41,234 bases of DNA from a bacterium (GCA_026417415.1 JAOADG010000023.1:1-41234), one strand, 5' to 3'; numbered from the stretch's first letter, positions 7,467 to 27,223 are shown. Notes: generated by a model from the sequence alone, not told the origin. Numbers and translations are program-made.

Positions 7467-7653
7467 TCTATTTTCCTTAATTTGAATTGAATAACTTGAA
7501 TTTGTTTATTCAAAAATAATATTTGGATTTTAGAAGTGAATATATTAAATTTTAATTAAGGATTTATTAAAAAATTGTAAATTTTATGTTTATCCCATAC
7601 ACAGATTCAAATCATCCTTGTTCTTAATATAGATAAATTCACTTGGAGGTGCT

Positions 7654-7860
7654 ATGAATTGCTTGCTCAAATGTATTTTTGCAACCATTTCACTTTCCTT
7701 TTTTACAAATGATGCACTCGCTTATTTAGATCCCGGTACAGGTAGTTACGTATTGCAGCTTGTGATTGGTGCCATTTTAGGAATGGGCATCGCATTCAAG
7801 ATGTACTGGACAAAAGTGATGAATCTATTTCGTAAAAAAGGAAGTAAAAAAGATGCCTGA
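7654..7860 (+). CDS. Small YLDPGTG membrane protein
   Basis: 68 residues. It has a signal-peptide-like start ending near NDALA, directly followed by the motif AYLDPGTGSYVLQ, one transmembrane segment (about 30-48) containing FKMYW, and a very basic tail with RKKGSKK. Small proteins with this YLDPGTGS motif recur next to methyltransferase and alkaline-phosphatase-fold envelope genes in my knowledge of bacterial genomes, but I know of no assigned function. The mature form would be a short exported N-terminus, a single span and a cytoplasmic basic end. A strong ribosome-binding site (TTGGAGGTG) precedes the ATG, and its stop overlaps the start of the next gene by eight bases. Confidence 0.82.
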   Translation: MNCLLKCIFATISLSFFTNDALAYLDPGTGSYVLQLVIGAILGMGIAFKMYWTKVMNLFRKKGSKKDA

Positions 7861-9241
7861 ACCATCACAAGTCGAGGCGGAACCATCCTCTTTTCGTGAT
7901 CCCTCCGGATACATTGTACAGTATCGCAATCATCTGTATAGAAAAGTACGCAAGTGTTATCAACCACATTATGATCATTTGATGTCATCAGGACTTTACA
8001 ACCGTTTGGTTCAAGAAAATTTGTTAATTTCGCATGAAGAGGTGGAGTTAGCGGAATTGTATGAACCAGAGGATTACAAGATTTTGCAACCATTCCGCGT
8101 TCCTTTCATTACGTATCCATACGGTTGGTGTTTCAGCCAATATAAAGATGCAGCACTTACCACGCTTAAAATCCAAGAATTGGCGATTGAATATGGGATG
8201 TCCCTGAAAGATGCCAGCGCTTACAACATTCAATTTTATTTAGGAAAACCAATCTTTATTGATACACTATCGTTTGAATTGTTTCAGGTAGAAAAACCGT
8301 GGGTTGCCTATCGTCAATTTTGTCAACACTTTTTAAGCCCTTTGCTATTAATTAGTAAAGTGGATCTGCGGTTAGGTGGGTTAAATCGTTTGTTCATTGA
8401 TGGTATCCCGATTGATTTGGCACAAAAGTTACTTCCATTTTCTACAAAATTGAGACCATCTGTATATCTACACATTCAGATGCATGCGAAATATCAAAAC
8501 AAATATGCAGATGCAACAGATATTCAACGTGCCAAACAAATTCGTTTGACGAAAAATTCTCACTTAGGATTAGTATCAAATTTACGCAATGTAATTTCCC
8601 ATTTGAGATTGCCTAAGGAATTTACAGAATGGGGCGATTACTATCATCATACCAATTATACGGATCGTGCCATTCAGTTTAAATACAACTACCTTGAGCG
8701 CTTTTCTCAACAATCCATTGTAGAAAGCGTGTGTGATTTTGGTGCAAACAATGGCTACTTTAGTAGAATTTTTTCCAAGCGGGGCATCCTTACTATTGCG
8801 TTAGATATTGATCCACTGGCAATTGAATCGTGTTATCTCTCTTCTAAAGATTCAAAAGAAAATCTTTATCCAATGATCATTGATTTAACCAATCCCGATC
8901 CTAGTATCGGATGGCATTGTGAAGAACGTCAATCCATTTTTGAACGTTTGCATATGGATTTAGGATTGGCATTGGCGTTGATTCACCATCTTACTATCAG
9001 CAACAACATCCCTTTTGAAAAAACTGCTAAAATGTTTTCTGATGCTTGTAAACAACTTATCATTGAGTTTGTACCGAAATCCGATTCGAAGGTAAAAAAA
9101 CTTTTAGCAACACGCGAAGATATTTTTCCACACTACGATCAAAATCACTTTGAACAAGTTTATTCAAATCACTTTGAGATTTTGGAAAAGACAGCAATTC
9201 CTGAATCAGAGCGGTTTCTGTATTGGATGAGGAAAAAATAA
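7853..9241 (+). CDS. Class I SAM-dependent methyltransferase
   Basis: 462 residues. A Rossmann-type SAM-binding motif sits at about residues 292-303 (VCDFGANNGYFS), followed by an acidic strand end in ALDIDPLAIE that would bind the SAM ribose. The N-terminal 250 residues, including PFRVPFITYPYGWCFSQ and YLGKPIFIDTLSFE, resemble the large methyltransferases sometimes annotated as NoeA-like; that assignment is from memory. No signal peptide. Its ATG lies inside the end of the YLDPGTG gene, and its stop overlaps the next start as TAATG, so the three genes are translationally coupled. A role in modifying a surface glycan or its lipid-linked precursor is inferred from the neighbours only. Confidence 0.82.
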   Translation: MPEPSQVEAEPSSFRDPSGYIVQYRNHLYRKVRKCYQPHYDHLMSSGLYNRLVQENLLISHEEVELAELYEPEDYKILQPFRVPFITYPYGWCFSQYKDAALTTLKIQELAIEYGMSLKDASAYNIQFYLGKPIFIDTLSFELFQVEKPWVAYRQFCQHFLSPLLLISKVDLRLGGLNRLFIDGIPIDLAQKLLPFSTKLRPSVYLHIQMHAKYQNKYADATDIQRAKQIRLTKNSHLGLVSNLRNVISHLRLPKEFTEWGDYYHHTNYTDRAIQFKYNYLERFSQQSIVESVCDFGANNGYFSRIFSKRGILTIALDIDPLAIESCYLSSKDSKENLYPMIIDLTNPDPSIGWHCEERQSIFERLHMDLGLALALIHHLTISNNIPFEKTAKMFSDACKQLIIEFVPKSDSKVKKLLATREDIFPHYDQNHFEQVYSNHFEILEKTAIPESERFLYWMRKK

Positions 9242-10755
9242 TGCTTTCTAAAATTCCGTTTTATCCATTTCTATTTGTTACACACTGGGTATTTTTTCTA
9301 TTTGTATATAACGCTCATGAATCGATTCCATTTCAGCATATTTTACTCCCTTGGGCTATCGTTTTGAGTAGCACAGGGTTATTTTTTCTTATTCTTTCTA
9401 TCTTTCGTAAAAAATTGGGTTGGGCAAAGATAGGATTACTTACTTTTCTTTTTGCAATTGTACTCTTTATCAAGCCACATCTCTATACATTAGTAGAACT
9501 AAAGATTCCGATATGGGATAAAATTCCTGATCGCATCCTCATTGTTTGCGTGTATTTGTTGCTTTTTCTGTTGGGAATTATCATCCTTTTCAAACACGTT
9601 TCTGAAAATACTACAAGATTTTTTAATCTGTTTTCTGTTGCGTTACTTATCCTACTCTATTTCCAATACCTTGAAAAAAAGAATGGAAATACAAGTTCAA
9701 TAGGATTCAATCTCACAACTACCAAACGGTTTGAGAAGGTTACGATACCTCAAAAGCCCAATCTCTACTATTTGATTTTAGATTCTTACCCGAGAGAAGA
9801 CATTCTTCGTGACTTGTATCAATATGATAACTCAGATTTTATTCATTTTTTGCAGGATAAAAAATTTTTTGTTGCCGATTCTGCAAAATCCAACTATATG
9901 CTAACCTATCTTTCCTTGTCTTCTTCGCTTAATCAAATGTATTTAGACACGGTTGTGGTGAATTTAGGAGTAAACAGTATTGAACGAGCACCCATCTATG
10001 ACATCGGTACCAACAATCTGACCGTTTTAACCCTGAAAAAGCAGGGCTATCAATACTATCACTGTTCTTCTGGTTGGGGTTATACCAACTCCAATCCACA
10101 TGCAGACAAACAATTCTATTCTTCTTTTATGAATGAATTCAATGAATTGTTTTACAAAAATACCATCTTTAGTCATTTGGAAAGCAAGATTAATCTAAGT
10201 CGTGTATCTTCACAGCACCGTTTCAATCGTAACATCGATTCGATCATCGCCAATGTTCAACAAAACAAAAGCCCATTGTTTGTATTTGCCCATTTCTTTC
10301 CACCACATCCACCTTACATATTTGATGAAAATGGAAATTTACCTAAGTTCACAACCTCCCTATTGGCTTCAAAAGGTCATTCCAACCGTCGTTTATTTGT
10401 TCAGCAATTGAAATACGTTAATCGCAAGATCAAAGAACTCATTGAGAATATTTGCAAATATGATCCTCAAGCCATTATTCTCTTACAAGCCGATCACGGA
10501 ATGAACTCAACTAAACAAATGGATGATGAAAAGGTGATCTCGGATAGTTTAATGTTTGAAAGGTCTGCAATTTTATTGGCGTTTAGAATTCCCCATCTCA
10601 AAGATTCAACGGTGTTACGACATCATCTTACACCTGTCAATCTATTTCGTATTGTGTTCAATGAATTGGGATTTCCAAAACAAGAACTGCTTCCCGATGT
10701 ATCGTATTTCTCAACCTATGATAAACCGTACCGTTTTCGTATAGTAGAATTTTAA
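9241..10755 (+). CDS. Membrane-anchored sulfatase/phosphoethanolamine-transferase-like protein
   Basis: 504 residues. The first 145 contain about four or five hydrophobic segments; the rest is an extracytoplasmic alkaline-phosphatase-fold domain. Metal-site features are visible: LYYLILDSYPRED with aspartate at about 181, a Ser/Thr-rich nucleophile region YMLTYLSLSSSLN, the FAHFFPPHPPYIFD stretch and the metal-binding DHGM at about 418-421. The layout is that of EptA/LTA-synthase-type transferases and membrane sulfatases, which move or remove phospho- or sulfo-groups at the cell surface. The substrate cannot be named. The ATG at 9241 is chosen because it overlaps the previous stop (TAATG); a TTG at 9223 is in frame but inferior. 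Confidence 0.85.
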   Translation: MLSKIPFYPFLFVTHWVFFLFVYNAHESIPFQHILLPWAIVLSSTGLFFLILSIFRKKLGWAKIGLLTFLFAIVLFIKPHLYTLVELKIPIWDKIPDRILIVCVYLLLFLLGIIILFKHVSENTTRFFNLFSVALLILLYFQYLEKKNGNTSSIGFNLTTTKRFEKVTIPQKPNLYYLILDSYPREDILRDLYQYDNSDFIHFLQDKKFFVADSAKSNYMLTYLSLSSSLNQMYLDTVVVNLGVNSIERAPIYDIGTNNLTVLTLKKQGYQYYHCSSGWGYTNSNPHADKQFYSSFMNEFNELFYKNTIFSHLESKINLSRVSSQHRFNRNIDSIIANVQQNKSPLFVFAHFFPPHPPYIFDENGNLPKFTTSLLASKGHSNRRLFVQQLKYVNRKIKELIENICKYDPQAIILLQADHGMNSTKQMDDEKVISDSLMFERSAILLAFRIPHLKDSTVLRHHLTPVNLFRIVFNELGFPKQELLPDVSYFSTYDKPYRFRIVEF

Positions 10756-10818: not shown

Positions 10819-11193
10819 ATGAAACGAAGGTGGCAGTTATCTGTCCGTATTGTTGCTTGGTGTCCGCGCATATTGGCTTTTGGATTTGCAATCTTCCTTT
10901 TGCTTTTTTCATTGGATGCATTTTCGGAAAACCATTCGTTCAGCGAGCAATTGCTATCTTTTACTCTCCATAACCTTCCTACAGTTTTCGTATTGTTGAT
11001 TCTTTTGTTGAGTTGGAAACGAGAGTGGATGGGTGGAATCGTGTTTCCCTTACTCGGTTTGCTTTACATCGTATTTACTTCTGGGAAGATGAATGGATGG
11101 ACTTATGGGCTAATCACGGGTTCACAATGCTTCATTGGGATATTGTATTGGATGAGTTGGATCACCCGAAAAAAGCACCATATCATTTCTTGA
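10819..11193 (+). CDS. Small integral membrane protein of unknown function
   Basis: 124 residues from the ATG at 10819, which has a purine-rich AAGAGAAGCGGA stretch upstream; a TTG at 10765 is in frame but lacks such a site. Four hydrophobic segments are visible, including ILAFGFAIFLLLFSLDAF, NLPTVFVLLILLLSW and IVFPLLGLLYIVF. The pattern of a basic amphipathic start, LDAF and then a short HNLPT helix recalls a small DUF family of four-helix membrane proteins, but I cannot name it with certainty. It lies 63 bases after the sulfatase-like gene in the same direction. Confidence 0.6.
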   Translation: MKRRWQLSVRIVAWCPRILAFGFAIFLLLFSLDAFSENHSFSEQLLSFTLHNLPTVFVLLILLLSWKREWMGGIVFPLLGLLYIVFTSGKMNGWTYGLITGSQCFIGILYWMSWITRKKHHIIS

Positions 11194-11283: not shown

Positions 11284-14200
11284 ATGCAAAAAAAATTGCT
11301 TCTTGTTTGCATAACTCTTTTCTTTTGTACTTCCATCTATGCTCAATCGCCGGAAAGCATATTGGCACGCGCTCGCGACTATCGTGACAACAACGTGCTC
11401 ATTGAAGCAGCAACCATTTATGAAGAATATTTGAAATTGCAACCGAATGACCATGAAGTGCGGATTGAATACGCCAAAGTGTTGTTAGCCATCCGCAAGC
11501 GGGATGCAGTGTTTGAGCAAGTTCGTATTCTACGCAATGCATTGCCTAAAGATCCAAGGGTCTGGGAACTCCAAAACCAAGCAGAAAATCTTCAACCACT
11601 GGCAACAGAAAAGCGGCGTCAAGAAGAGCAAGCACAATGGCGACCACCAGTGGTAAGCGAGCAAAATTTGAAATCCAATGCTACCAAAAGTGGTGCAGCG
11701 CCAGAAGATATCCTCAAATATGCTCGTTACTTACAAAGCAAGCGACGGGTAGATGAATGTGTGGTTCAATATCGTAGATACTTACAACTCAGACCCACGG
11801 ATAAGGCAGTGCATCTAGAACTGGCGAAAGTATTCGGTTGGTTTCAACGGTACCCAGAATCAGAAAAAGAATTAAATGCATTGATTGCTAAAGAGCCACA
11901 ATATGCCGATGCTTATCTATTTTATGGGGATATCCTGTATTGGCAAGGCAAAGAAGAGCAAGCGTTAGAAACCTATAAAAAAGTATTGAATTTTTCACCT
12001 AACCACAAAGTCGCCAACGAAAAAATTCAAAAGTTGGAAAACAGCCCATCGTTTCGTGAAAGCCAACTATTGGCTCAGTTGAAAAAAAATCCCAATGGAC
12101 CAGCAGCAGATCAATTGGTGAAGTTGTATTTTGAAGTCGGTCGCTATTTTGAAGCCGATTCCTTGAATCGTTTGCGATTGGTTGCTAACCCACGCGATTC
12201 GGTGCTCTTAGCCATGCAAGCCAAGATACGTGAAAAAAGTAATGAACAACTAAACAAAGAGTACGAAGAGCATCGCAAACGATATCTACACAATCCGAAC
12301 GATATGGTGGCTTTTGATTGGATGCTCAAAAAACATTTGGATCGTTTTGAATATGAACCGGCTTTGCAACTGTTGGATAAACACTTGATGCGAAATCCCA
12401 ACGATTTGGAACGACGTCTAAAACGTGCGCAATTGTTGAATTGGATGAAACGATCCGAAGAAGCCGTGGGCGAATTCCGATGGTTACAATCCCATGGCTA
12501 TGAAACACGTGAGGTGCTTATCGGCTTAGGTAACGCCTTACGCTTTACCAATACATCTTTGGATGAAGCAGAACAAATTTTTCAAAATGATCTGGTCAGT
12601 TACCCCGATGATCTGAATACCAAGATCGCATTGGCTGACATCATGCGCCGTGAAGGGAAGTTAGAAGAAGCGCAAGCATTGCTCAAAGAGGTATTGGCTG
12701 TAGATTACAAAAATTTTGATGCTACTGAAACTCTAATGTTGGTAGAATCACAGTTGGGACCACCCATTCGTCGCTTGGAACGACGTATAAACCGCAACCC
12801 GCAGGATTGGGAGGCACGAAAAGAGTTGGTGGACTACTATCTGGATATGGAACTGTATTATACCGCCAAAGAGGTTTTAGAGCCAGTAGCGGCACAGTTT
12901 CCAAAAGATACGGCAGTCACACGCAAGATGAATCTGATTAACCAACAAATAGCCAAATTGCGGGAAGAAGAGATCCGTCAAGCGCGATTTCGGATTGAAG
13001 ACAACCCAATGGACATCCAAGCCCGCATTCGTTATGGGCAACTTTTATCATCGGTAGGGAAATACAAAGAAGCCGTCGCACAATATCGTGATGCATTACG
13101 TTTGCAGCCCAACGAACCTGAAGTGATGTACTATTTGGCTGAAGCGTTGGTCGCTAGTAACCAGTACAAAGAGGCGCAAGAGTATTATCGCCAGCTGGCT
13201 GACCGCTATCCTGCGAATTTTCAGTATCGTTTTCGCTATGCTCAATTGCTGTCGTGGTCTGGTGATTACGATCAAGCGTTGCGCGAATATGAACGTGCAA
13301 ATCGCATCAATCCAAATTCTGCAGAAGTGGAACTTGGAATTGCAAACATCTTGCGCTGGCGAGGTCAACGCACCGCTGCAATACAACGCTATCAGCGGGT
13401 TCTGGCGATCCGACCCTTGGATACTGAAGCCATCACCGCACTACGTGGGATTAGCAAGGTCATGGTGGGTGGTGCCAGTGGGAATACCCGTTTTGTGATG
13501 GATAGCGAAGATTTTCAATTGATGGATTATGGTGGGCTTGGATATATCCAATTGTCCCCCTATGCACAAATGCGAGCTGGAGGCGGCACCATTGAAATGT
13601 CCCAACATACTGCCAAAGAGAAAGGGTGGTATCTGGGTGGAGGGATGGATTTGGAGCTGGATGACTACACTGCTTTTGATTTTTCGGGGAGGTGGTATCA
13701 ATTTGAAAAACGTGATAGTTGGGAAGCAAGAGCCGTTCTTACCCATCGTTTTGATAAAGTTCCCTCTTTGTATGGATTAGAAACATCCATTTATGCGGAC
13801 TTTCGTGCTGCCCCCTTTGAAATTTTAGCCACCGATTACTTAGAGACCTGGACCAAAAAACTACGTACCGAACGGTATGGGATTTATGCGACCTATTTGT
13901 ACCAAAATCGTTATCGCATTGAAGGGGAAGCATCCAATTTGATGGTTTCGGATGGGAATCAAATCCATTCTTATTCCGCAGAGCCGTCTCTTTTAATCAC
14001 CCCGAAGTTTGCGGTGGGAGCGCGGATTGAGTATTTGGATGCGACCAAAATGAAAACCGAATATTGGACACCTAACGATTACGGATCTGCTGGGCTATGG
14101 TTTAGTACGCTGTTCGGGAGCAACCGCTTCAATACACGCATTCGGTTAGGGAGTGGTAGGATTTTCAAATTCAACCACCTGATAAACAGCGGATCGGCAG

Positions 14201-14325
14201 AACTTAATTGGGTGATTAGCAATCGTTTTACTTTGAATTTGTCTTATAGTGCATCCAAAACCAGACGCGAAGATGGCGGTTACTCTTACCATGGCGGAAA
14301 TGGTGCGTTGTATCTCAATTTTTAA
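11284..14325 (+). CDS. TPR protein with C-terminal outer-membrane beta-barrel, probable polysaccharide exporter
   Basis: 1013 residues: a signal peptide (KLLLVCITLFFCTSIYAQ), then tandem tetratricopeptide repeats over about residues 20-710 (for example YGDILYWQGKEEQALETYKKV and YGQLLSSVGKYKEAVAQYRD), then about 290 residues of alternating aromatic and polar strands ending in ALYLNF with a terminal Phe. This periplasmic-TPR plus barrel design is that of the exopolysaccharide exporters BcsC, PgaA and PelB. The size fits that group, but I cannot assign one family. The ATG at 11284 is chosen over TTG 11272 because GCGAGG is well placed upstream. The three secreted deacetylase-like genes that follow support a role in export or processing of an amino-sugar polymer; no synthase is encoded nearby. 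Confidence 0.82.
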   Translation: MQKKLLLVCITLFFCTSIYAQSPESILARARDYRDNNVLIEAATIYEEYLKLQPNDHEVRIEYAKVLLAIRKRDAVFEQVRILRNALPKDPRVWELQNQAENLQPLATEKRRQEEQAQWRPPVVSEQNLKSNATKSGAAPEDILKYARYLQSKRRVDECVVQYRRYLQLRPTDKAVHLELAKVFGWFQRYPESEKELNALIAKEPQYADAYLFYGDILYWQGKEEQALETYKKVLNFSPNHKVANEKIQKLENSPSFRESQLLAQLKKNPNGPAADQLVKLYFEVGRYFEADSLNRLRLVANPRDSVLLAMQAKIREKSNEQLNKEYEEHRKRYLHNPNDMVAFDWMLKKHLDRFEYEPALQLLDKHLMRNPNDLERRLKRAQLLNWMKRSEEAVGEFRWLQSHGYETREVLIGLGNALRFTNTSLDEAEQIFQNDLVSYPDDLNTKIALADIMRREGKLEEAQALLKEVLAVDYKNFDATETLMLVESQLGPPIRRLERRINRNPQDWEARKELVDYYLDMELYYTAKEVLEPVAAQFPKDTAVTRKMNLINQQIAKLREEEIRQARFRIEDNPMDIQARIRYGQLLSSVGKYKEAVAQYRDALRLQPNEPEVMYYLAEALVASNQYKEAQEYYRQLADRYPANFQYRFRYAQLLSWSGDYDQALREYERANRINPNSAEVELGIANILRWRGQRTAAIQRYQRVLAIRPLDTEAITALRGISKVMVGGASGNTRFVMDSEDFQLMDYGGLGYIQLSPYAQMRAGGGTIEMSQHTAKEKGWYLGGGMDLELDDYTAFDFSGRWYQFEKRDSWEARAVLTHRFDKVPSLYGLETSIYADFRAAPFEILATDYLETWTKKLRTERYGIYATYLYQNRYRIEGEASNLMVSDGNQIHSYSAEPSLLITPKFAVGARIEYLDATKMKTEYWTPNDYGSAGLWFSTLFGSNRFNTRIRLGSGRIFKFNHLINSGSAELNWVISNRFTLNLSYSASKTRREDGGYSYHGGNGALYLNF

Positions 14326-14337
14326 TCTGATGTTTAG

Positions 14338-16149
14338 ATGATACTGCGACTACTGATCACATTGTTACTTGGGAGTTGGATGGGAGTGACGTGGGCAAAT
14401 ACTCCCCTTCAGGTATTGTATGTACGACCTGCTAATTCTGCAAAACTGATAGGCGAACAAATCGGTGAAAAACATCGGTTTTACCAAACAAAGAGCATTA
14501 TCCGCGATGTATTGCTAAAAGGCGAATCGTTTCAAGTGGTGATCAAATCGGATAAAGAGATTCCTAAGGACTTAGTAAAGTATGACATCATCATTTTACC
14601 AGAAATCATCTGTTTAAGCGATCAAGATTTGGATCACTTGTACCAGTATGTTCAAAACGGTGGTGGTCTCTTTATGAGTGGGGGTATTGGAAGTTACACC
14701 CCTTCTGGTGAGTGGCGGGGCTATTCGTTTTTCTACAATCTAATGGGGACTGAACCTGTTGCAGTGACCAACCACTTAAACGAAATAGAAGCGTTGCATT
14801 TTCGTTACGGTTATCCGGGCACCTTAGCAATTCCGCCGGCTTGTTTTTTACCCATCACACCCTACACGGCCCCCTTGACCCTGAAACATTCTGATGCTGT
14901 GGATATTTTGGCCTATTGGTCCGAAGGCATCATCGGGAATAAAGATCCGAAAGATATCCCTCGTGAAGTTGGGTTTGTGGTTCGCGAGATCCCCGATGGA
15001 GGGCGTATTGCATGGGTAGGTGCTGATGTAGAGGGGTTAGATATTAGCCCCGAACGAAAACCTTACTACTTACCGTTTTTTCATCAGTTGTGGAACTGGC
15101 TTGCGGGAAAAGCAATCGTTGGGTTGGAACCATGGCCGATGGCGAAAAAGAATGCCATCTTAATTCATGGGGATATAGAAACCAATTTTCATTTGGTAGA
15201 AAATATTCTTGAACCCTTGCGAAAGTACCGCGTGAAAAGCACTTTTAATCTACTTTTATCTGAAGCGGAAAAAGTTCCGAAGCAACTGATCGAGGATTTG
15301 CGGAACACAGGGGGAGAGTTGGGTTCGCATGCTTACGAGCACAATCATTTTTGGGGTCAACCCTTTCGTATCCAGTTGGAAAGATTGCAACGATTTCAGA
15401 ATGCCAGTCAGAAATACAATTTTACAGCTAAAGGTCTAAGACCTCCTTATTTAGCACACGACGACAGTACCTTAGAAGCCGTGCGACAGATGGGGATGCT
15501 TTATATTACCGCGGATAAAGAAACCTATGCCAATTATCCCCGCGTGGTTTATGGAAAAGGGGAATATGCGAAAAAAGGGGTCGTGCTGTATCCTAAAGGG
15601 GAACTTGATGATTATGATATTTTTTATGTACTTCAAACCAAAGACCAACGTGAAGTCAGTAGAATGTTTCTTACGGATTATTTTAGGTTGCGCGACTGTC
15701 GTGGTTTGTATCAATTCAATTATCACAGCCAATTTTTAAATACACCCCAATTGACTGTGGTCTTAGATTCCCTATTGGAGATCGCCACGCAAGACCAGTC
15801 GGTTTGGATTGCGACCGCAGAAGAAATATCCAGTTGGATATTGGAGCGTGATCAATTGCATTTAACGTCTTCCTATCAGAATCAATGTCTGCGGGTAGTG
15901 GTCAAAAACCATGGTAACGATACTCAATGGTCAAGTTATCTGAAAATTGTGAACCCGCTTCCAAAAGGGAATGCAACGAAACCAACGGCTACTAAAAAAG
16001 AGACCAAAACGGAAACCCTACAATACCGTCAAGATATTGTTCCGAATGAAGAGGGGTTGGTGGCGATACCCCCCTTAAAAAATGGCGAAACATTTGCATT
16101 TGAAATCGTTTTTAACCAAAGTGCATCTAGTACTATGGGGAGCCGATGA
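14338..16149 (+). CDS. Secreted GATase-like/polysaccharide-deacetylase protein, copy 1
   Basis: 603 residues with a signal peptide ending near VTWANTP. Residues about 20-260 form a glutamine-amidotransferase-like fold of the beta-galactosidase trimerisation type (DIIILPEIICLSDQD, then QNGGGLFMSGG). Residues about 275-500 are a NodB-like CE4 domain: AILIHGDIETNF, the metal-binding pair in GSHAYEH, LRPPYLAHD and a late FNYHSQF histidine. The C-terminus is beta-rich with a Lys/Thr-rich insert. CE4 enzymes remove N-acetyl groups from polysaccharides; PelA and PgaB are analogues in export systems. It follows the TPR/barrel gene by 12 bases, and its end overlaps copy 2 by four bases. Confidence 0.82.
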   Translation: MILRLLITLLLGSWMGVTWANTPLQVLYVRPANSAKLIGEQIGEKHRFYQTKSIIRDVLLKGESFQVVIKSDKEIPKDLVKYDIIILPEIICLSDQDLDHLYQYVQNGGGLFMSGGIGSYTPSGEWRGYSFFYNLMGTEPVAVTNHLNEIEALHFRYGYPGTLAIPPACFLPITPYTAPLTLKHSDAVDILAYWSEGIIGNKDPKDIPREVGFVVREIPDGGRIAWVGADVEGLDISPERKPYYLPFFHQLWNWLAGKAIVGLEPWPMAKKNAILIHGDIETNFHLVENILEPLRKYRVKSTFNLLLSEAEKVPKQLIEDLRNTGGELGSHAYEHNHFWGQPFRIQLERLQRFQNASQKYNFTAKGLRPPYLAHDDSTLEAVRQMGMLYITADKETYANYPRVVYGKGEYAKKGVVLYPKGELDDYDIFYVLQTKDQREVSRMFLTDYFRLRDCRGLYQFNYHSQFLNTPQLTVVLDSLLEIATQDQSVWIATAEEISSWILERDQLHLTSSYQNQCLRVVVKNHGNDTQWSSYLKIVNPLPKGNATKPTATKKETKTETLQYRQDIVPNEEGLVAIPPLKNGETFAFEIVFNQSASSTMGSR

Positions 16150-17900
16150 AGAAAAATTCTATTCTTACATTTCTTTTACTGCTCTTGTTTTGGGTTGCGA
16201 TAGGTACTTCTAAGGTAGATAGTAAGATCTTGTTTGTCAGACAAGCAGCGTCTGCACAAAAGTTGGAACGTGAGCACAAGGTGGATTATCGCTATTATTC
16301 TTCGCAAAGCATCTACACCAATCTATTGTTAAGAGAATTTCCTTATGATATGGTGTCTGACCTTGCTATTCCACAAAACTTTTCTACCTATACGTTAATC
16401 ATTTTACCGGATATTGTTTGTTTGAACCGTTCTGATTACGAACGGATTGAAAAATTTGTGGTTCAAGATGGGGGTGGATTGCTGGTCACGGGAGCAACTG
16501 CAATCTGCGACGGAAAAGGGAATTTTCAAGGGTACGACTTTTTACGAAGGTTGTTAGGGGCTTCACCTCAGGTGGTACGAGCAGAACACGAAGAAATTGC
16601 TGCACTTCATCTAAGATATGGCTATGCGGGCTCAATGGCGGCTCCACCCGGCTATTTCTTAAAACTTTATCCGGTGGCAAAGCCGTTGTACTTACCAAAA
16701 GAACATTCTGCTGATGTGGTGGGTTATTGGTCCGAAGTGTTCATTGGGAATAAAGATCCGCGTCTGCTGTCACGTACGGTAGGGTTTGTGGTGAAAGAGT
16801 TCCCTAAAGGGGGTAGAGTTGCGTGGATTGGTGCCGATTTGGAGGACTTGCAGAATACCAACGAAACGCGCTTCTATGTTGCCGCGATATTTCGTCAGTT
16901 ATTCCAATGGTTAATGGGTGATCCCATCGTAGCCCTTGAACCTTGGCCTAATCAAAAACAGTATGCGGTCCTTTTTCATGGGGATATTGAAACCGATTTT
17001 GATGAGGTGGTGAATATTCTTGAACCCATCAAAAAGTACCAAGCCAAAACAACGTTCAATTTACTGATGAATCAAGCAGAAGAATATCCTGAAGTGGTAG
17101 AGCAAGTGCGTCGCACCAAAGGGGAACTAAGTATCCACGGATATGAACATGACCACTTTTGGGGTCAACCGTTAGATGTTCAGAAAGAACGATTGGAACG
17201 TGCAGTAGCATCCAGTAAACGGTTTCAATTTAGACCGTTGGGACTCAGACCCCCTTATCTTTCGCATGATGAAAATACCATTGAAGCCATTAGACAGATG
17301 AAAATGCTTTACATCACGGCTGATCGCAAAAGTTATTCCAATTATCCACGCGTGGTTTACTCCCAGCACGATACTGCCAAAACTAATGGGGTTGTGTTGT
17401 TCCCTAAAGGCGAGTTGGATGATTATGACTTTTTTGATGTGTTAGAGTTAAAGGGGTCAGATGCGGTTTCTCAGGTTATTCTTTTGGACTATCAACGTCT
17501 TAAAGATGTACGTGGGTTGTATCAGTTCAATTACCATAGTCAGTACTTAAAACGGAAAGAATTGATTGTTGGGGTGGATAGATTACTTAAAGAGGTCACT
17601 ACAGATAAAACTGCATGGTTAGCCACCTCAGCAGAAATTGCGGATTGGATTTTACAACGTGAAGGTCTTAATGTGGAATATCAGTACGATCAAGGAATGC
17701 TCAAAGTGACGGTCACCAATCAAGGTTTGGATTTGTTAGCATTTCCCTATCTTAGAATCGTATCACCTAAAGGGGGTAAACTCAAATGGGTCCAGCTAAA
17801 CGAGAATGTGGACAATAGTGCTGTACTAAACACAGGATACCTCAAAATTCCCAAACTAAAAAAAGGTGAGACCTTTTCAATCGCAATGAAAGTCCAATAA
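16146..17900 (+). CDS. Secreted GATase-like/polysaccharide-deacetylase protein, copy 2
   Basis: 584 residues, paralogous to the genes on both sides along its whole length. It has a signal peptide, a GATase-like part (LIILPDIVCLNRSDYE, DGGGLLVTGA), then the CE4 region with VLFHGDIETDF, SIHGYEHDHF, LRPPYLSHDE, KGELDDYDFF and QFNYHSQYL. The HxxxH metal pair is kept although the preceding Ser-Ala of the other copies is Ile-His-Gly here. The ATG overlaps the stop of copy 1 (ATGA) and has GGGGAGCC upstream, so the two are translationally coupled. The C-terminal tail lacks the Lys/Thr insert of copy 1. Confidence 0.82.
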   Translation: MKKNSILTFLLLLLFWVAIGTSKVDSKILFVRQAASAQKLEREHKVDYRYYSSQSIYTNLLLREFPYDMVSDLAIPQNFSTYTLIILPDIVCLNRSDYERIEKFVVQDGGGLLVTGATAICDGKGNFQGYDFLRRLLGASPQVVRAEHEEIAALHLRYGYAGSMAAPPGYFLKLYPVAKPLYLPKEHSADVVGYWSEVFIGNKDPRLLSRTVGFVVKEFPKGGRVAWIGADLEDLQNTNETRFYVAAIFRQLFQWLMGDPIVALEPWPNQKQYAVLFHGDIETDFDEVVNILEPIKKYQAKTTFNLLMNQAEEYPEVVEQVRRTKGELSIHGYEHDHFWGQPLDVQKERLERAVASSKRFQFRPLGLRPPYLSHDENTIEAIRQMKMLYITADRKSYSNYPRVVYSQHDTAKTNGVVLFPKGELDDYDFFDVLELKGSDAVSQVILLDYQRLKDVRGLYQFNYHSQYLKRKELIVGVDRLLKEVTTDKTAWLATSAEIADWILQREGLNVEYQYDQGMLKVTVTNQGLDLLAFPYLRIVSPKGGKLKWVQLNENVDNSAVLNTGYLKIPKLKKGETFSIAMKVQ

Positions 17901-17925
17901 AGAGTTCATTTTCATAGGAATGCAT

Positions 17926-19713
17926 ATGAATAGAGTTTTTCGATCTAAGTTCAAATTCCAGTCCTTATTCTTCTATCTTTTGCTTTGGGGAATAATTGCT
18001 TCGTCAGCAACTGCCCAAAACTCGGTGCTGTATGTTAGGCCTGCGAATTCAGCGGACTATTTCGAAAAAACGTACCAATTGCAACGCTATTATACCCCCA
18101 AAAATGTCTATTTAGATGATTTGTTATCCAATACTAGATATATTGCACAATTTGCGTCTGATAAAAATTTTCCAACTACACTTGAAGGATACAGTTTTGT
18201 AATCTTACCGGATATCGTTTGTTTGAGCCGCTCCCATTTTCATAAAATTACCGATTATGTAAAAAAAGGGGGTGGCTTGTTTATCACTGGTGGATTGGGT
18301 TCAAGGACCGAATCGGGCGAATTTCAAGGATATGGTTTGTTGCGTGAATTGTTGTCGGTTGAACCCCGCGAAGCCAGTGGTAAGTTAGAAGATCTAAATG
18401 CATTGCAGTTGCGATACGGTTATGCGGGCTCGTTAGCGGCACCACCGGGTTATTACCTATTGGTCGCTCCATCGTTTCAACCGTTGTGTGTTCCTGCCTC
18501 TGCGAATTTGGAAGTGGTGGGATATTGGTCAGAAGCCGATTACGACGAGGTGGATCCTGCGACCATTAAACGAGAAGCGGGGTTGGTGATACGGGAGTTT
18601 CCCTCGGGCGGACGAATAGTATGGGTTGGAACAGATTTGGAAGATTTGGTACGAAACAGTTCTACCCGTCCTTTTTATCGCCCGATAGTACGACAGCTGT
18701 TTGAATGGGTGGCCGGAGAAGCAGTCGCTGGCATTGAACCTTGGCCCGAGCGTTATCGGAATGCAGTTCTAATTCACGGGGATATTGAGACCAACTTTGA
18801 AAAAGTAGTCAATGTGATTGATCCGTTTACCAAGTACAAAGTAAAAACAACGTTTAATTTACTGATGAATCAGGCGGAACGGTACCCGGATATTCTAAAG
18901 CGTTTGGGTGCTACCGGGGGCGAGTTAAGTTCGCATGCTTACGAGCATGATCATTTTCTTTATCAACCGTACGATGTTCAGTATAATCGTATTCAGCGTT
19001 TTCTGGAAGTGAGTAAAAAGTACGGTTTTAAGCCCATGGGTCTAAGACCCCCGTATCTATCGTTTGATGAAAATACTATTGAAGCCGCCATCCAGAACAA
19101 TTTGTTGTATATTACCTCCGATCGTTATCCCATCTCTGCTTATCCCAGAGTGGTGCATTCTAAAAACGATAGTACTAAAAAGTTGGTCTTATTCTCAAAA
19201 AACGAACTTGACGATTACGATTTATTTGAAAAATTGGCAGTAAAAAACCCAAACGACATTCGTAGAATGGTGTTAGAAGATTATCAACGGGTTTCCGATA
19301 TGCGGGGTTTATATTCGTTTAACTACCATAGCCAATTTTTGGCACATCCGGAACTGGTGGTTGCTGCGGAAGCGTTGCTTTCCACAGTAACCCCTCAAAA
19401 AGAGGTCTGGATTGCTACTGCCTCTCAAATTGCAGAATGGATATTGCAACGAGATGCATTGCAGGTGGATATTGCTTCCAACTACGGGCGTTTGACCGTT
19501 TCTATTGTCAATACGGGAATCCCCATGACTTCGCAGGCCTATGTCCGTGTGATCCCCCCTGCCTACAAAATGCGAGCAGGTTATACTGGGAGTGCGATGC
19601 GTGGGAATGTAATGGTGGAAAATGGCTTGGTAAAAGTACCCAAATTGAAAACCGGTGAACGGTTTTCCATTGAGATAGCCCCTTCGCAGTTTACCACCAG
19701 TTCATTGCGCTAA
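17926..19713 (+). CDS. Secreted GATase-like/polysaccharide-deacetylase protein, copy 3
   Basis: 595 residues from the ATG at 17926, chosen over ATG 17920 because the AGGA before it is then at normal spacing. Signal peptide ends near SSATAQN. The same two modules as copies 1 and 2 are visible: VILPDIVCLSRS and KGGGLFITGG, then AVLIHGDIETNF, SSHAYEHDHF, LRPPYLSFDE, KNELDDYDLF and SFNYHSQFL. Three linked copies with intact motifs suggest duplication followed by some specialisation rather than decay. The stop is two bases before the upp start, so upp may be read from the same transcript. Confidence 0.82.
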   Translation: MNRVFRSKFKFQSLFFYLLLWGIIASSATAQNSVLYVRPANSADYFEKTYQLQRYYTPKNVYLDDLLSNTRYIAQFASDKNFPTTLEGYSFVILPDIVCLSRSHFHKITDYVKKGGGLFITGGLGSRTESGEFQGYGLLRELLSVEPREASGKLEDLNALQLRYGYAGSLAAPPGYYLLVAPSFQPLCVPASANLEVVGYWSEADYDEVDPATIKREAGLVIREFPSGGRIVWVGTDLEDLVRNSSTRPFYRPIVRQLFEWVAGEAVAGIEPWPERYRNAVLIHGDIETNFEKVVNVIDPFTKYKVKTTFNLLMNQAERYPDILKRLGATGGELSSHAYEHDHFLYQPYDVQYNRIQRFLEVSKKYGFKPMGLRPPYLSFDENTIEAAIQNNLLYITSDRYPISAYPRVVHSKNDSTKKLVLFSKNELDDYDLFEKLAVKNPNDIRRMVLEDYQRVSDMRGLYSFNYHSQFLAHPELVVAAEALLSTVTPQKEVWIATASQIAEWILQRDALQVDIASNYGRLTVSIVNTGIPMTSQAYVRVIPPAYKMRAGYTGSAMRGNVMVENGLVKVPKLKTGERFSIEIAPSQFTTSSLR

Positions 19714-23273: not shown

Positions 23274-24479
23274 TTAACAACCCCCTTTGATCTTTTTAAC
23301 CGCCCGAGGTTTTTTCTGACCTTTCGTTTTTTCTTCTGCAATCATTTGTTTTAAGGTCTCGCTTGCCATTTTCCTAAATTGAAGCGTTATAGGGTCAAGC
23401 CCTGTGTCCCATTGAGCGGGCTTAACCTCATTAGGTTGCAAATGAAACAGTTGAGCAAAAGTATGGATATCGGTTTCTAAAGGGTACACATTCTTTGCAC
23501 CCAAATGCATTAAGATGCGTGCGATGGTTTCTGCCTGTTTAAGATCTTTCGCAATCACAACTTTTTTTAGAAATTCGTTGCGGATCAGTTCATTCCCACT
23601 TTTTCCTAACACATCCCTTTCGGTAAGCCGCACACTGTTCGGTAAAGCAAACTGCTGAAATTCATCCTCACTACGAAAATCAAAAATTTGCAGGCGAGGA
23701 TCCCGATCTACCAAGCGGAACGCCAATTCGTCCACAGGCATCAGCGCAACTGGGTTTTGTAAAATGTAATCGGTTTTGGATACCATTTGTTCAAGATATT
23801 GTTTGCGGTCAGGCATCCATAGAAACCACAATGCTAAGAGAAAAGTTGCTGCAGTAGCAAGTCGTAACGAAAATGTTGGAAAACTAAGCGAGGGAGCGTT
23901 GTCAGGGTTCACTTTTTTCTCAATTTTTGAAGTCAAAATAAAAGCCATTAGTGCGACCGCGATAAGGATGAATGCAAACACACCTTGTGGGATTCCCAGT
24001 GAATCAAATACATAAATGGGTCCCAAAGCAGATGAATTGACAAAGGATTGGATTGATGGATAAATTTCAGCATACAAAAAAGTGCCCACCATCCCACCTA
24101 TCACAAAGAACAATGCGTCCACTTTTCCTATTGCTAAAGCACAAATGCTGGTCCCGGGACAATATCCACCCAAAATAAAACCAATCCCCATAATTACTCC
24201 CCCTACAATGGCAGGATATAGCCAAGTTGGGTTTATAAAGATAGCGTCCACATCCAGATAGCCCCAATGACCCAAAAGCAATACACCACTCATTGCAGTT
24301 ACCGCTGCAGTAAAAAAGACACGCAGTACAGTGAAATCATAACCATAGAACACCCCTGCCAATCGTCGGGATGAAGAAAACCCCGCTTGTTCCAGGATAA
24401 AGCCAAAGGCGATCCCAATTAAAAAAGCAAGGATTAAATTGAATGGTTCAGAAATCAATTCCGGTACAAATGGTCCCAT
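23274..24479 (-). CDS. YeeE/YedE membrane protein fused to a rhodanese-like domain
   Basis: 401 residues from ATG 24479, which has AGGAGG at ideal spacing; longer in-frame starts overlap the upstream gene. Residues about 1-240 hold roughly six or seven membrane spans of the YeeE/YedE (TsuA-like) family, including GGYCPGTSICA with the pore cysteine that contacts thiosulfate in characterised members. Residues about 265-350 look like a rhodanese fold (LQIFDFRSEDEFQQF, then VVIAKDLKQAETIARIL), but no cysteine is present where the catalytic loop should be. A Lys-rich tail ends in KKIKGGC. The protein has only three cysteines. Likely imports or relays reduced sulfur alongside the octahaem cytochrome genes upstream; the direction of transfer is unknown. 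Confidence 0.85.
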   Translation of the reverse strand: MGPFVPELISEPFNLILAFLIGIAFGFILEQAGFSSSRRLAGVFYGYDFTVLRVFFTAAVTAMSGVLLLGHWGYLDVDAIFINPTWLYPAIVGGVIMGIGFILGGYCPGTSICALAIGKVDALFFVIGGMVGTFLYAEIYPSIQSFVNSSALGPIYVFDSLGIPQGVFAFILIAVALMAFILTSKIEKKVNPDNAPSLSFPTFSLRLATAATFLLALWFLWMPDRKQYLEQMVSKTDYILQNPVALMPVDELAFRLVDRDPRLQIFDFRSEDEFQQFALPNSVRLTERDVLGKSGNELIRNEFLKKVVIAKDLKQAETIARILMHLGAKNVYPLETDIHTFAQLFHLQPNEVKPAQWDTGLDPITLQFRKMASETLKQMIAEEKTKGQKKPRAVKKIKGGC

Positions 24480-24492
24480 GGTTAACCTCCTA

Positions 24493-25005
24493 TTATTTCC
24501 ATAAACGGCGAGCAAAAAAAGCCGCCATATAGCCGGTACCAAATATCGCCATCATAGTAACAAATCCCGCTGTGGACAATACCGCCATCCCACTTAGTGC
24601 AGCACCGCTGGTGCACCCGCGTGCCATTTGGGCGCCAGCAATAAACAACATCCCTCCTAACGCCGCAAAAAACCAGCGCCATTGTGGTTTTAGGTGAGGA
24701 CCGCTTTCTGTGGTCCATTTCAAGCGATTGGACAGTAAACCAGAAAGAAAGGCACCAAAAAGTACTCCCAATACCTCAAATACCAACCATGCTTTTAAGG
24801 GTGGTTCTTTATCTTTACCCACATAATCTTGGTAAAATGGATTCTGGGCGGCGTGATTAGGTGCGGTGGTAATTACTCCCGCAATAATTACATTTTTAAA
24901 TGCTCCACTTGCTCCCAATCCTCGGCCTGTAATGAAAATGGTGGCGAGTAGCAATAAACCTAACAAAAATCCTGCTAAATAAGGGTTCATATACTTGGTG
25001 TTCAT
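24493..25005 (-). CDS. Small YeeE/YedE family membrane protein
   Basis: 170 residues with four hydrophobic segments. It carries the second-type YeeE/YedE signature: ITGRGLGASGAF near the start and AQMARGCTSGAALSG with the conserved cysteine. Together with the larger fusion protein it resembles the two halves of a full-length YeeE transporter, so the two may assemble. The ATG overlaps the stop of the cytochrome b gene (ATGA), and the next start is 13 bases beyond its stop, indicating one operon. Confidence 0.87.
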   Translation of the reverse strand: MNTKYMNPYLAGFLLGLLLLATIFITGRGLGASGAFKNVIIAGVITTAPNHAAQNPFYQDYVGKDKEPPLKAWLVFEVLGVLFGAFLSGLLSNRLKWTTESGPHLKPQWRWFFAALGGMLFIAGAQMARGCTSGAALSGMAVLSTAGFVTMMAIFGTGYMAAFFARRLWK

Positions 25006-25649
25006 ATTACCACCTCCTCTTGTTTTTGGGAATCAGAAGTCGGATGATGATCGGTCACCTCTTCGTATCCAGTAATCATTGCTTTTAGGTTTGAAAAAAT
25101 GGTCGTGCCGGTAGTTATCAGATACAAATGAGCGATCAAAAATGCCACCAAAACAAACGCACCGGCAGTATGCCAATAAGCAATACTTTTTATCCCCACA
25201 AAACCAAAAGGGAGCGTTTCGTATTGCTGTGGGTAACGATAGAAAAGATAGAGAATCCCAGAAAGTCCCATCACGGGGATGACCAATACCTTGAATCCAA
25301 AATAGACAATTCTTTGTAAAGGGTTGAGTTTGCTAAGAGCGGTTTTTCGTGTTGGGTGAGGTGCATTGCGAAATATGCCGAACAAATAATAATCCAACTG
25401 TGCACGAATGTTTTGCAAAGTGGGAAGGTATTGTCTCCACTCCCCCGTAACCAAATGCCAAAAAATGGCAAAAACCACCAAAATTAAGTAAGCAATGGCG
25501 AAGATCTGGTGGTAATGGACTGCATTTTCATATCCAAAAAACGTATAGGAACCGTGAACTTCAAACCCCGTGAGCATCAAAAGCATCACCAACAGGGCTT
25601 GCATCCAGTGCCAAAATCGCTCAAAACGGCGGTATATGTAGATTCGCAT
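25002..25649 (-). CDS. Dihaem cytochrome b membrane subunit
   Basis: 215 residues of the prokaryotic cytochrome b561 / hydrogenase-type cytochrome b family. Four or five membrane spans are seen. Candidate haem-ligand histidines are in RRFERFWHWMQ (H14), AVHYHQIF (H45/H47), FWHLVTGEW (H65) and the last spans YWHTAGAFV and FLIAHLYL. Such subunits pass quinol electrons to periplasmic multihaem partners. It starts within a TAATG overlap with the octahaem cytochrome stop, so the two are probably a quinol-linked pair. Confidence 0.9.
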   Translation of the reverse strand: MRIYIYRRFERFWHWMQALLVMLLMLTGFEVHGSYTFFGYENAVHYHQIFAIAYLILVVFAIFWHLVTGEWRQYLPTLQNIRAQLDYYLFGIFRNAPHPTRKTALSKLNPLQRIVYFGFKVLVIPVMGLSGILYLFYRYPQQYETLPFGFVGIKSIAYWHTAGAFVLVAFLIAHLYLITTGTTIFSNLKAMITGYEEVTDHHPTSDSQKQEEVVI

Positions 25650-27223
25650 TAAACATCCCTCCTGGCTTGATTTTTGGTGGAGTGATAAATTCGTAAAAGA
25701 GTATGGAGAATAACCGCTATGATAGTGAAGATGATAAGCCCTTTCCCGATATGATCAATCCAATAATTGCGGTCTCGGGCAGGCAAATAGAAATCGGTGA
25801 GAGCAGCTAAGCGGCTATTTTCTCGGGAATGACATTCCACACAGGACAGTGCTTGGGATTTGGGAGCAACCATATGGTTGATGGGCCAGGTCATTTCGGT
25901 TTTCACAAAACCGTAATCACCACTATAGGGCAATCCCAAATGCTGCATTCCAGCTTGAATGGCTTTTTGCCAATCAAAATCGTTCCAAAACCCACTATCC
26001 CCTTTGGTGACTGAATAGGTTTTGGGTTGTACCAAGTAGTTATATTTTTTATCATAGGGTTGTACGGCACGATGAATTTTCACGGGAATGATTTTTGCCT
26101 CGGGATCGCGATAACTCCCAAACAGTTCATTGATTTTTACCACTTGTGTGGGGTTTATCGGTTCGCCCAACAATACATGGGTAGCAGTCCCATTGAACCA
26201 TAGGTATTCAGGTTTCACGTTACGAGCCCAAGTAAACGTTCCTTTTAAGGAGGTATAGGCAACCATTCCCAAAGAGTCCTTTTCTTCGTAAGGTTCACCA
26301 TTTTTTAAGTTTCCGGCAGTGGACCAATCCCACTCCATTTTGGTGGGATTGACCTTTGCATAGGTCGGAATATGGCAGGTTTGACAAGCAACTTTGATCC
26401 CGTGGCGGTTCAAAATGGTTTGCTGGTGGGGTTTATCAGTATGGCATTGTTCGCATTGAACGCGATCGCGATTCATGGATGAGAGGGAGTACACTTTCCC
26501 TAACATTTGGTGATTTTTAGCGGTATGGCAATCCACACACGATAGATCCACTCCATCCGTCCCCATATGAACATCAATCTCGCGCTCTGTATCAAACAGT
26601 GCCATTTCCAAATCCCCGTGCTTAACGTTGTTTCCGCCACCCCCGAAAAAGTGGCAAGTGCCACAATTGTTCCGTGTCGGTCTTCCCACGCTTTGAGCCA
26701 CAATATTGAGGTTTACGGAGGGATCGGGCATACCCGCACCACCGCTGGCTTTGAGGTACGTATTGGATAAGTCATGACACGATAAACAATCTACGTTCAA
26801 CGGATTCTGAAAGTCAAAACTGGCATCCTTAAACCCAAACCCGATGTGACATTTGTTGCAAGCCGCTTCGTTGCTTGCAATCCCGATACAAAAGTTATTG
26901 AGGATATTCTTTTTTCCAATAGCACGAATCCCTTTGCCAGTCACATATTCCAAACGTTCCCAATTCCAATGGCTAGATTTCATCACTTCTATGTGACGTT
27001 GGTTATGGCAAGAGATGCACGCTTCGGTCACTTCTTGAGGGCGGGTAAAAGGTTTTTGGAGTGGTAAAAATTTTGAATGGTCCGCACTTTTACTCGCTTT
27101 TTTGTGATATTTTTCGCGAAGTTGGGAAAGAAGAGGGGGTCGATAAGGTTCTTTGAAGAGCGACGGGATCAATATCGCTGCAAAGATACCCAACAGCAAC
27201 AACCCTAAAAAGATGCGTTTCAT
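25649..27223 (-). CDS. Octahaem c-type cytochrome, tetrathionate-reductase family
   Basis: 524 residues with an N-terminal membrane segment or signal anchor and a C-terminal membrane span (GLIIFTIIAVILHTLL). Exactly eight CxxCH haem sites begin at C69, C122, C146, C187, C229, C257, C280 and C461; the long gap before the eighth and several extra histidines match the octahaem tetrathionate reductase (OTR) family. Characterised OTR reduces tetrathionate and also nitrite or hydroxylamine in vitro, so the true substrate here is open. Located on the outer face of the inner membrane, it would take electrons from the cytochrome b encoded next. The flanking YeeE/YedE genes favour a sulfur compound. 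Confidence 0.92.
   Translation of the reverse strand: MKRIFLGLLLLGIFAAILIPSLFKEPYRPPLLSQLREKYHKKASKSADHSKFLPLQKPFTRPQEVTEACISCHNQRHIEVMKSSHWNWERLEYVTGKGIRAIGKKNILNNFCIGIASNEAACNKCHIGFGFKDASFDFQNPLNVDCLSCHDLSNTYLKASGGAGMPDPSVNLNIVAQSVGRPTRNNCGTCHFFGGGGNNVKHGDLEMALFDTEREIDVHMGTDGVDLSCVDCHTAKNHQMLGKVYSLSSMNRDRVQCEQCHTDKPHQQTILNRHGIKVACQTCHIPTYAKVNPTKMEWDWSTAGNLKNGEPYEEKDSLGMVAYTSLKGTFTWARNVKPEYLWFNGTATHVLLGEPINPTQVVKINELFGSYRDPEAKIIPVKIHRAVQPYDKKYNYLVQPKTYSVTKGDSGFWNDFDWQKAIQAGMQHLGLPYSGDYGFVKTEMTWPINHMVAPKSQALSCVECHSRENSRLAALTDFYLPARDRNYWIDHIGKGLIIFTIIAVILHTLLRIYHSTKNQARRDV

Follow-up and report, generated by a model that had tools for sequence, protein, structure and literature searches.

A small membrane protein with a YLDPGTGS motif accompanies NoeA- and NoeB-type enzymes in many bacterial phyla

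What is the role of a protein of just 68 residues whose gene overlaps a gene for a much larger enzyme, which in turn overlaps a third? We considered this question for a stretch of bacterial DNA of 41,234 nucleotides (GCA_026417415.1 JAOADG010000023.1:1-41234, the window), in which the small gene (positions 7654-7860) is followed on the same (+) strand by open reading frames for proteins of 462 amino acids (7853-9241) and 504 amino acids (9241-10755). The small and middle genes overlap by 8 bases (7853-7860), and the middle and third genes share one base within TAATG at 9239-9243. A first-pass annotation, made from the sequence alone, had described a small protein with a YLDPGTG motif, one membrane span, and a basic tail, followed by an S-adenosylmethionine (SAM) methyltransferase and a membrane enzyme of the alkaline-phosphatase fold. 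It proposed that the small protein is a scaffold or adaptor in the modification of a surface polymer. Its gene coordinates, both overlaps, and its features of the 68-residue protein are correct to the base.

Host-range nodulation genes known since 1995 include noeA and noeB, and the two larger proteins of the window are related to the products of this pair. In a tblastn comparison, the middle protein is 32.9% identical to NoeA of Sinorhizobium meliloti over 99% of the query (E = 3e-64), and a profile of its family that was built without NoeA finds NoeA with E = 7e-111. A profile of the family of the third protein, built without NoeB, finds S. meliloti NoeB with E = 1.6e-20. Judged by sequence, the middle protein is a member of the NoeA kinase-methyltransferase family and the third protein is a distant homologue of NoeB. 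The first-pass annotation knew of no assigned function for the trio, and this has to be corrected: two of the proteins are homologous to NoeA and NoeB, which are named as host-specific nodulation proteins, and the neighborhood was published in 2022 (PMC9758233). At curated cut-offs, Pfam, NCBIfam, and PADLOC identify no family for any of the three window proteins. (Weak matches to DUF6524, Tet(38), and an “Effector” phospholipase were dismissed as membrane-segment noise.)

To find relatives of the small protein, we searched 84,980 species genomes with a pattern that is in effect the peptide AYLDPGTGS alone. There were 503 matching stretches, of which 486 encode relatives of the small protein, and we analyzed the best 80 of these 486 loci (here and below, individual loci carry L numbers). 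Both a NoeA-type and a NoeB-type gene are neighbors in 62 of the 80 loci, just the NoeA-type gene in 11, and just the NoeB-type gene in 7; no locus has neither. If we consider only the 51 loci with full flanks (the contig extends at least 2 kb to the left and at least 3.3 kb to the right of the small gene), then the counts are 43 with both enzymes, 6 with the NoeB-type only, 2 with the NoeA-type only, and again 0 with neither. The order small-NoeA-NoeB is found in 43 loci, and the genes mostly overlap or are separated by a few bases. The set recurs in over a dozen phyla of bacteria. Sources that the record titles name include Calditrichaeota, KSB1, Krumholzibacteriia, Zixibacteria, Latescibacterota, Planctomycetes-type lineages, Verrucomicrobia, Bacteroidota, Chloroflexota, Clostridia, Actinomycetes, Armatimonadetes, Elusimicrobia, Aminicenantes, alpha-, gamma-, and deltaproteobacteria, and candidate-phyla bacteria. 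Pelagibacteraceae are also among the sources of the small protein.

We also scanned a separate set of 386 genomes (G numbers) with a seven-sequence profile of the small protein and a profile of the middle protein. Matches to the small protein occur in 22 genomes, matches to the middle protein in 18, and matches to both in 17 (Fisher p = 2.5e-24). In 16 of these 17 genomes, the two genes are next to each other on one contig; G042 has them on different contigs. The eighteenth genome with the middle protein (G270) has an adjacent small open reading frame that falls just below the threshold and was detected with a wider profile. Three matches to the small profile were set aside as doubtful, two that lie inside long, unrelated-looking reading frames (G308 and G144) and one that is interrupted by a stop (G043). 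The pair is unevenly distributed in the phylum of the window: the middle protein is found in 4 of 39 genomes, and the small protein is found in the same four. The genome of the window has a single copy of each of these two genes. Overall, tabulating the neighbors gave a recurrent association in distant phyla rather than one confined to close relatives, and the statement in the first-pass annotation that similar small proteins lie beside such enzymes in distant bacteria is strongly borne out (80 of 80 loci and 17 of 18 genomes).

A few observations bear on mobile elements. None of the phage records matched the middle protein. A complete trio lies on a contig classed as viral (L195, 4899-8738); we suspect either cargo or a bacterial contig that was misassigned. 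We rejected a defense-system reading of the trio, as there was no PADLOC match of weight.

The small protein has a hydrophobic N-terminus that ends in ALA before Tyr24 (a predicted signal peptide, 7654-7722), the sequence YLDPGTGSY, a single hydrophobic span at about residues 29-51, and a basic tail. If the signal peptide is cleaved after ALA, as the sequence suggests, then the YLDPGTGS motif (7723-7746) would be the exposed N-terminus of the mature protein. Consistent with cleavage there, Ala is found at position -3 in 67 of 80 relatives; the Ala at -1 is part of the search pattern and hence is not independent evidence. Note that the pattern fixes both the motif and this preceding Ala, so that conservation is independent only at other positions. 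Among those, position 12 of the mature protein is Gln and position 16 is Ala or Gly in all 80 relatives, position 20 is Gly in 67, position 26 is Lys or Arg in 76, and position 29 is Trp in 74. In the window protein, Gln35, Gly39, and Gly43 lie in the predicted span (7738-7806, by hydropathy and conservation) and Trp52 follows it. Because residues well outside of the search motif are shared and the gene order recurs across phyla, the relatedness of these small proteins goes beyond chance. The window protein has all of the features of the family: the signal-like start, AxA ahead of YLDPG, the span with Gln12 and Trp29, the basic tail, and the NoeA- and NoeB-type neighbors. This widespread family has no model in Pfam or NCBIfam.

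For the middle gene (7853-9241), the label of SAM methyltransferase captured the C-terminal domain and missed the kinase-like N-terminal half. The class I SAM methyltransferase domain (approximately 8660-9238) contains the motif Asp295-x-Gly-x-Asn299, in which Asp295, Gly297, and Asn299 are invariant across our alignment of 58 NoeA-type sequences. In the kinase-like domain (approximately 7889-8540), Arg30 (at the position of the usual Lys), Asp120 (catalytic), Asn125, and Asp137 (metal-binding) are invariant in 58 of 58 sequences. A structural model from this alignment (predicted local distance difference test score, or pLDDT, of 93.8) shows the order helix, catalytic loop, strand, strand, Asp in the kinase-like half, and the top match among solved structures is WbdD, mostly via the methyltransferase half. 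We predict, from sequence and model, that this protein is a kinase-methyltransferase and not a methyltransferase alone.

The model of the third protein (9241-10755; pLDDT of 88.8) has five long N-terminal helices, which we take to be membrane helices, and an alkaline-phosphatase fold. EptC, MCR-1, and EptA lead its Foldseek matches, with sulfatases close behind, and phosphoethanolamine transferases rank highest among the matches with a membrane domain. The predicted nucleophile is Thr222 (codon at 9904-9906), which lies at the start of a helix (222-230 in the model) and is conserved as Thr in 41 of 42 NoeB-type sequences, the remaining one having Ser. Asp181, His351, His356, and Asp418, the putative metal ligands, are invariant in all 42. 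The third protein had no match among PDB sequences with phmmer at E ≤ 1, so there is no clear sequence homology to EptA or MCR. As modeled, it probably works like the EptA/MCR phosphoethanolamine transferases, and we do not claim membership in the EptA family.

Variants of the trio are informative about the small protein. In three of the loci in which an alkaline-phosphatase-fold gene accompanies the small gene and a NoeA-type gene is lacking (L158, L137, and L068), a CDP-glycerol-type (cytidine diphosphate) phosphotransferase of family PF04464 takes the place of NoeA and adjoins the small gene; L068 additionally has genes for phosphoenolpyruvate mutase/cytidylyltransferase and phosphonopyruvate decarboxylase, as for phosphonate decoration. 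Four other loci without a NoeA-type gene (L085, L093, L153, and L164) show no such exchange in the sequence that was read. L192 and L193, from two genomes of a single genus, encode a PF04464 phosphotransferase that has the small module fused to its N-terminus, beside the same phosphonate genes as in L068. Adjoining the fusion genes are genes for proteins of about 900 residues (L192, 2496-8066; L193, 10236-15686) whose N-terminal domain is YidC-type (60KD_IMP) and whose C-terminal half matches the NoeB-type profile. In one further genome (L194, 1521-3683), the small module (signal peptide, AYIDPGTS, and span) is joined in one protein to a phosphodiesterase (PF01663), a member of the alkaline-phosphatase superfamily. 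The fused inner enzyme follows the span directly, and the fused outer enzyme follows a further hydrophobic segment. Both kinds of fusion fit the topology predicted from the sequence, with the motif outside and the tail inside. These fusions, together with conservation of the protein across phyla, led us to reject the idea that the small reading frame is a leader peptide or serves purely for translational coupling.

We propose that the three genes form a cassette for adding a phosphate-based group to an envelope glycan or glycolipid, with the small protein as an adaptor, a proposal that we consider about as likely to be right as wrong. The cytoplasmic NoeA-type protein would phosphorylate and then methylate a membrane-associated acceptor, with chemistry like that of WbdD. 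The NoeB-type protein, with its five helices, EptA/MCR-like outer domain, Thr nucleophile, and metal ligands, would then transfer or rearrange a phosphate group on the membrane's outer face. The small protein would be exported and probably cut after ALA, so that YLDPGTGS becomes a free outer end, and it would remain in the membrane as a peptide of about 45 residues with its basic tail inside, joining the inner and outer enzymes. Since the sources include Clostridia, Actinomycetes, and candidate-phyla bacteria, it is improbable that lipopolysaccharide is the sole substrate. The scaffold or adaptor role suggested by the first-pass annotation gains indirect support from the fusions, the slot replacement, the EptA/MCR- and WbdD-like folds, and some glycan neighbors. 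If the proposal is right, then it offers a concrete hypothesis about the chemistry (that an envelope glycan or lipid is decorated with a phosphate-based group) and a candidate role for a widespread small protein.

Several points weigh against this proposal. We infer the substrate and the chemistry of the cassette. The fusions are few (three genomes, two of them of one genus). The WbdD match covers mainly the methyltransferase half (201 columns, with a template-modeling score of about 0.3), and the kinase half is recognized from its motif, predicted secondary structure, and a published model of a homologue. Enzymes of the alkaline-phosphatase fold include hydrolases, and sulfatases fill much of the Foldseek list. 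Finally, the genes beyond the trio are diverse: some encode glycosyltransferases, epimerases, O-antigen ligases, or methyltransferases, but glycan genes are found in a minority only.

A broader version of the adaptor proposal is that the small protein is a universal core that couples interchangeable cytoplasmic loaders (proposed to be either the NoeA-type kinase-methyltransferase or a CDP-alcohol/phosphonate transferase) to EptA-like outer enzymes, and that it is also a fourth gene product of the nodulation operon that NoeA and NoeB need. We put this forward tentatively, as a combination that is somewhat more likely to fail than to hold.

Among the alternatives, the one that survives best is that the small protein serves the NoeB-type enzyme only, as a dedicated stabilizer, chaperone, or activator, and that its link to the NoeA-type protein reflects operon membership. 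The membrane enzyme is indeed present in 49 of the 51 loci with full flanks, including 6 without a NoeA-type gene; the span has an [AG]xxxG pattern that is suited to helix packing; and one fusion involves an enzyme of the alkaline-phosphatase superfamily. But the NoeA-type gene is kept in 45 of the 51, and the small module is fused to or adjoins cytoplasmic phosphotransferases at five loci (L192, L193, L158, L137, and L068), and we view this alternative as unlikely, if still a serious one.

It is less probable still that the membrane enzyme is a hydrolase (a phosphodiesterase, phosphatase, or sulfatase-like enzyme) that trims or releases a group, so that the cassette would remodel a glycan or a secreted lipid signal. 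Many of the fold matches are sulfatases, Pfam's Sulfatase model matches 32 of the 42 relatives, and one fusion partner is the PF01663 phosphodiesterase. Against this, the nucleophile is Thr in 41 of 42 relatives, and the Cys/Ser-x-Pro-x-Arg signature of type I sulfatases does not characterize the family (just 3 of 42 sequences contain such a string at any position); because of the Thr nucleophile, we rejected membership in the type I sulfatases. That the best matches with a membrane domain are phosphoethanolamine transferases also argues for transfer over hydrolysis.

The small protein might instead be the substrate itself, with its YLDPGTGS end or its tail modified by both enzymes and displayed on the surface. 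This would account for a motif that is extraordinarily conserved and lies exactly at the predicted mature N-terminus. However, the cytoplasmic tail has no conserved Ser, Thr, or Tyr across the 80 relatives for a kinase-methyltransferase to act on, and fusion to an enzyme would be unusual for a substrate; because the fusions to inner and outer enzymes fit the topology of an adaptor, we favor an adaptor and think a substrate very improbable. The least credible alternative is that the trio encodes secreted effectors, as was considered for the Legionella homologues Lani_1193 to Lani_1195, which are predicted effectors in the 2022 survey (PMC9758233), given that the trio is found in many phyla, including candidate-phyla bacteria and Pelagibacteraceae, and that the NoeB-type protein is modeled as an integral membrane enzyme.

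In the window, a GGAGG resembling a Shine-Dalgarno sequence (7645-7649) lies 4 bases ahead of the first ATG of the trio. Because the pair of genes upstream (CvpA-like and MutS2-like, by inspection) is divergent, on the opposite strand, the trio is probably the head of its own transcription unit; a promoter scan gave nothing that exceeded shuffled sequence. Just downstream is a gene for a small membrane protein that matches DUF7670 (10819-11193, E = 5e-27). At 11287-19713 there follow a tetratricopeptide-repeat protein with a C-terminal barrel-like (outer-membrane-type) region and three tandem proteins, related to one another and each with a polysaccharide-deacetylase domain, possibly a set for polysaccharide export or modification. 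These genes fit a surface-glycan context, although this is a single instance. Farther along, a UDP-galactopyranose-mutase-like gene (uridine diphosphate) and then a glycosyltransferase gene (30286-32323, by eye) suggest that the organism has galactofuranose in a surface glycan. Between these, on the minus strand (23274-27223, by eye), are genes for a multihaem cytochrome and a cytochrome b-like membrane protein, together with YeeE/YedE-like transporters that end in a rhodanese-like region.

How does the trio compare to known systems? The closest is the rhizobial operon that is cited as nodL, noeA, and noeB (PMC9758233, PMC9048898, and PMC4053727). A role in host-specific nodulation or Nod factor modification is known for the rhizobial operon only (PMC9048898 and PMC4053727), and what this literature says of noeA and noeB includes no demonstrated reaction for either product. 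Like the window, the operon (nod box n5 in S. meliloti) has the order small-noeA-noeB, with a small YLDPGTGS reading frame that overlaps noeA, and, by inspection, rhizobial NoeA and NoeB share the catalytic motifs of their window homologues. Unlike the window, it has nodL, for an O-acetyltransferase, at its head, and its NoeB is only distantly related. A gene annotated as a “hypothetical protein” separates nodL from noeA, which it overlaps, on pSymA of Sinorhizobium strain ml47 and in Rhizobium sp. T136. The reading frame between rhizobial nodL and noeA encodes ...PAHAYLDPGTGSMLVQ..., which the seven-sequence small profile scores at 3e-12. The small genes on Sinorhizobium and Rhizobium symbiotic plasmids (L080, 4769-4984; L081, 4769-4984) are labeled merely as hypothetical or, in certain records, missing from the annotation. 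The operon genes named in the cited papers, where they treat the operon, are the three above, and the small gene is not among them; it looks like an unrecognized fourth gene of the nodL-noeA-noeB operon. In a literature search for the motif strings, neither YLDPGTG nor IDPGTGS gave a hit, and the one paper for DPGTG was unrelated.

The trio's kind of system is already known from the 2022 survey of the Legionella pan-kinome, and the window trio is a further member. The survey describes Lani_1194 as a kinase plus methyltransferase, identifies NoeA and NoeB as homologues, and gives Lani_1195 and NoeB a predicted alkaline-phosphatase fold; among 816 neighborhoods, Lani_1193 is a neighbor in 65% and Lani_1195 in 38% (PMC9758233). 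Lani_1193, whose sequence is not described in the survey's main text, may be the small YLDPGTG protein. The survey's main text also differs from our analysis in that it reports no phosphotransferase replacement or fusions (PMC9758233). Three points seem to be new here: the small protein as an almost constant third member, the exchange for a CDP-alcohol phosphotransferase at the NoeA slot, and the fusions.

Each enzyme also has more distant counterparts. WbdD, which acts on the O9a O-antigen glycan of E. coli, is a bifunctional kinase and methyltransferase, like the NoeA-type protein. WbdD has the order methyltransferase, kinase, coiled coil, whereas the NoeA-type model is reversed, with the kinase-like domain at the N-terminus, and a search of PDB sequences with the middle protein found no sequence relation to WbdD. 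With reversed domains, no sequence match, and a fold match mainly in the methyltransferase half, we do not place the middle protein in the WbdD family. EptA, EptC, and MCR-1 share with the NoeB-type protein the five membrane helices, the outer alkaline-phosphatase-fold domain, and the Thr nucleophile, but are just 11-14% identical to it in structural alignment. The CDP-glycerol:poly(glycerophosphate) glycerophosphotransferases (PF04464) differ from NoeA and are absent from the window trio, yet they occupy the NoeA position in three loci and are fused to the small module in two genomes. Overall, noeA and noeB may be one rhizobial use of a cassette that is common to many phyla, with a tiny third part and a phosphotransferase/phosphonate variant. 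The interest of the system lies in the small protein as its constant part, in the presence of this protein in a classic nodulation operon, and in the exchanges and fusions that point toward phosphate-based decoration.

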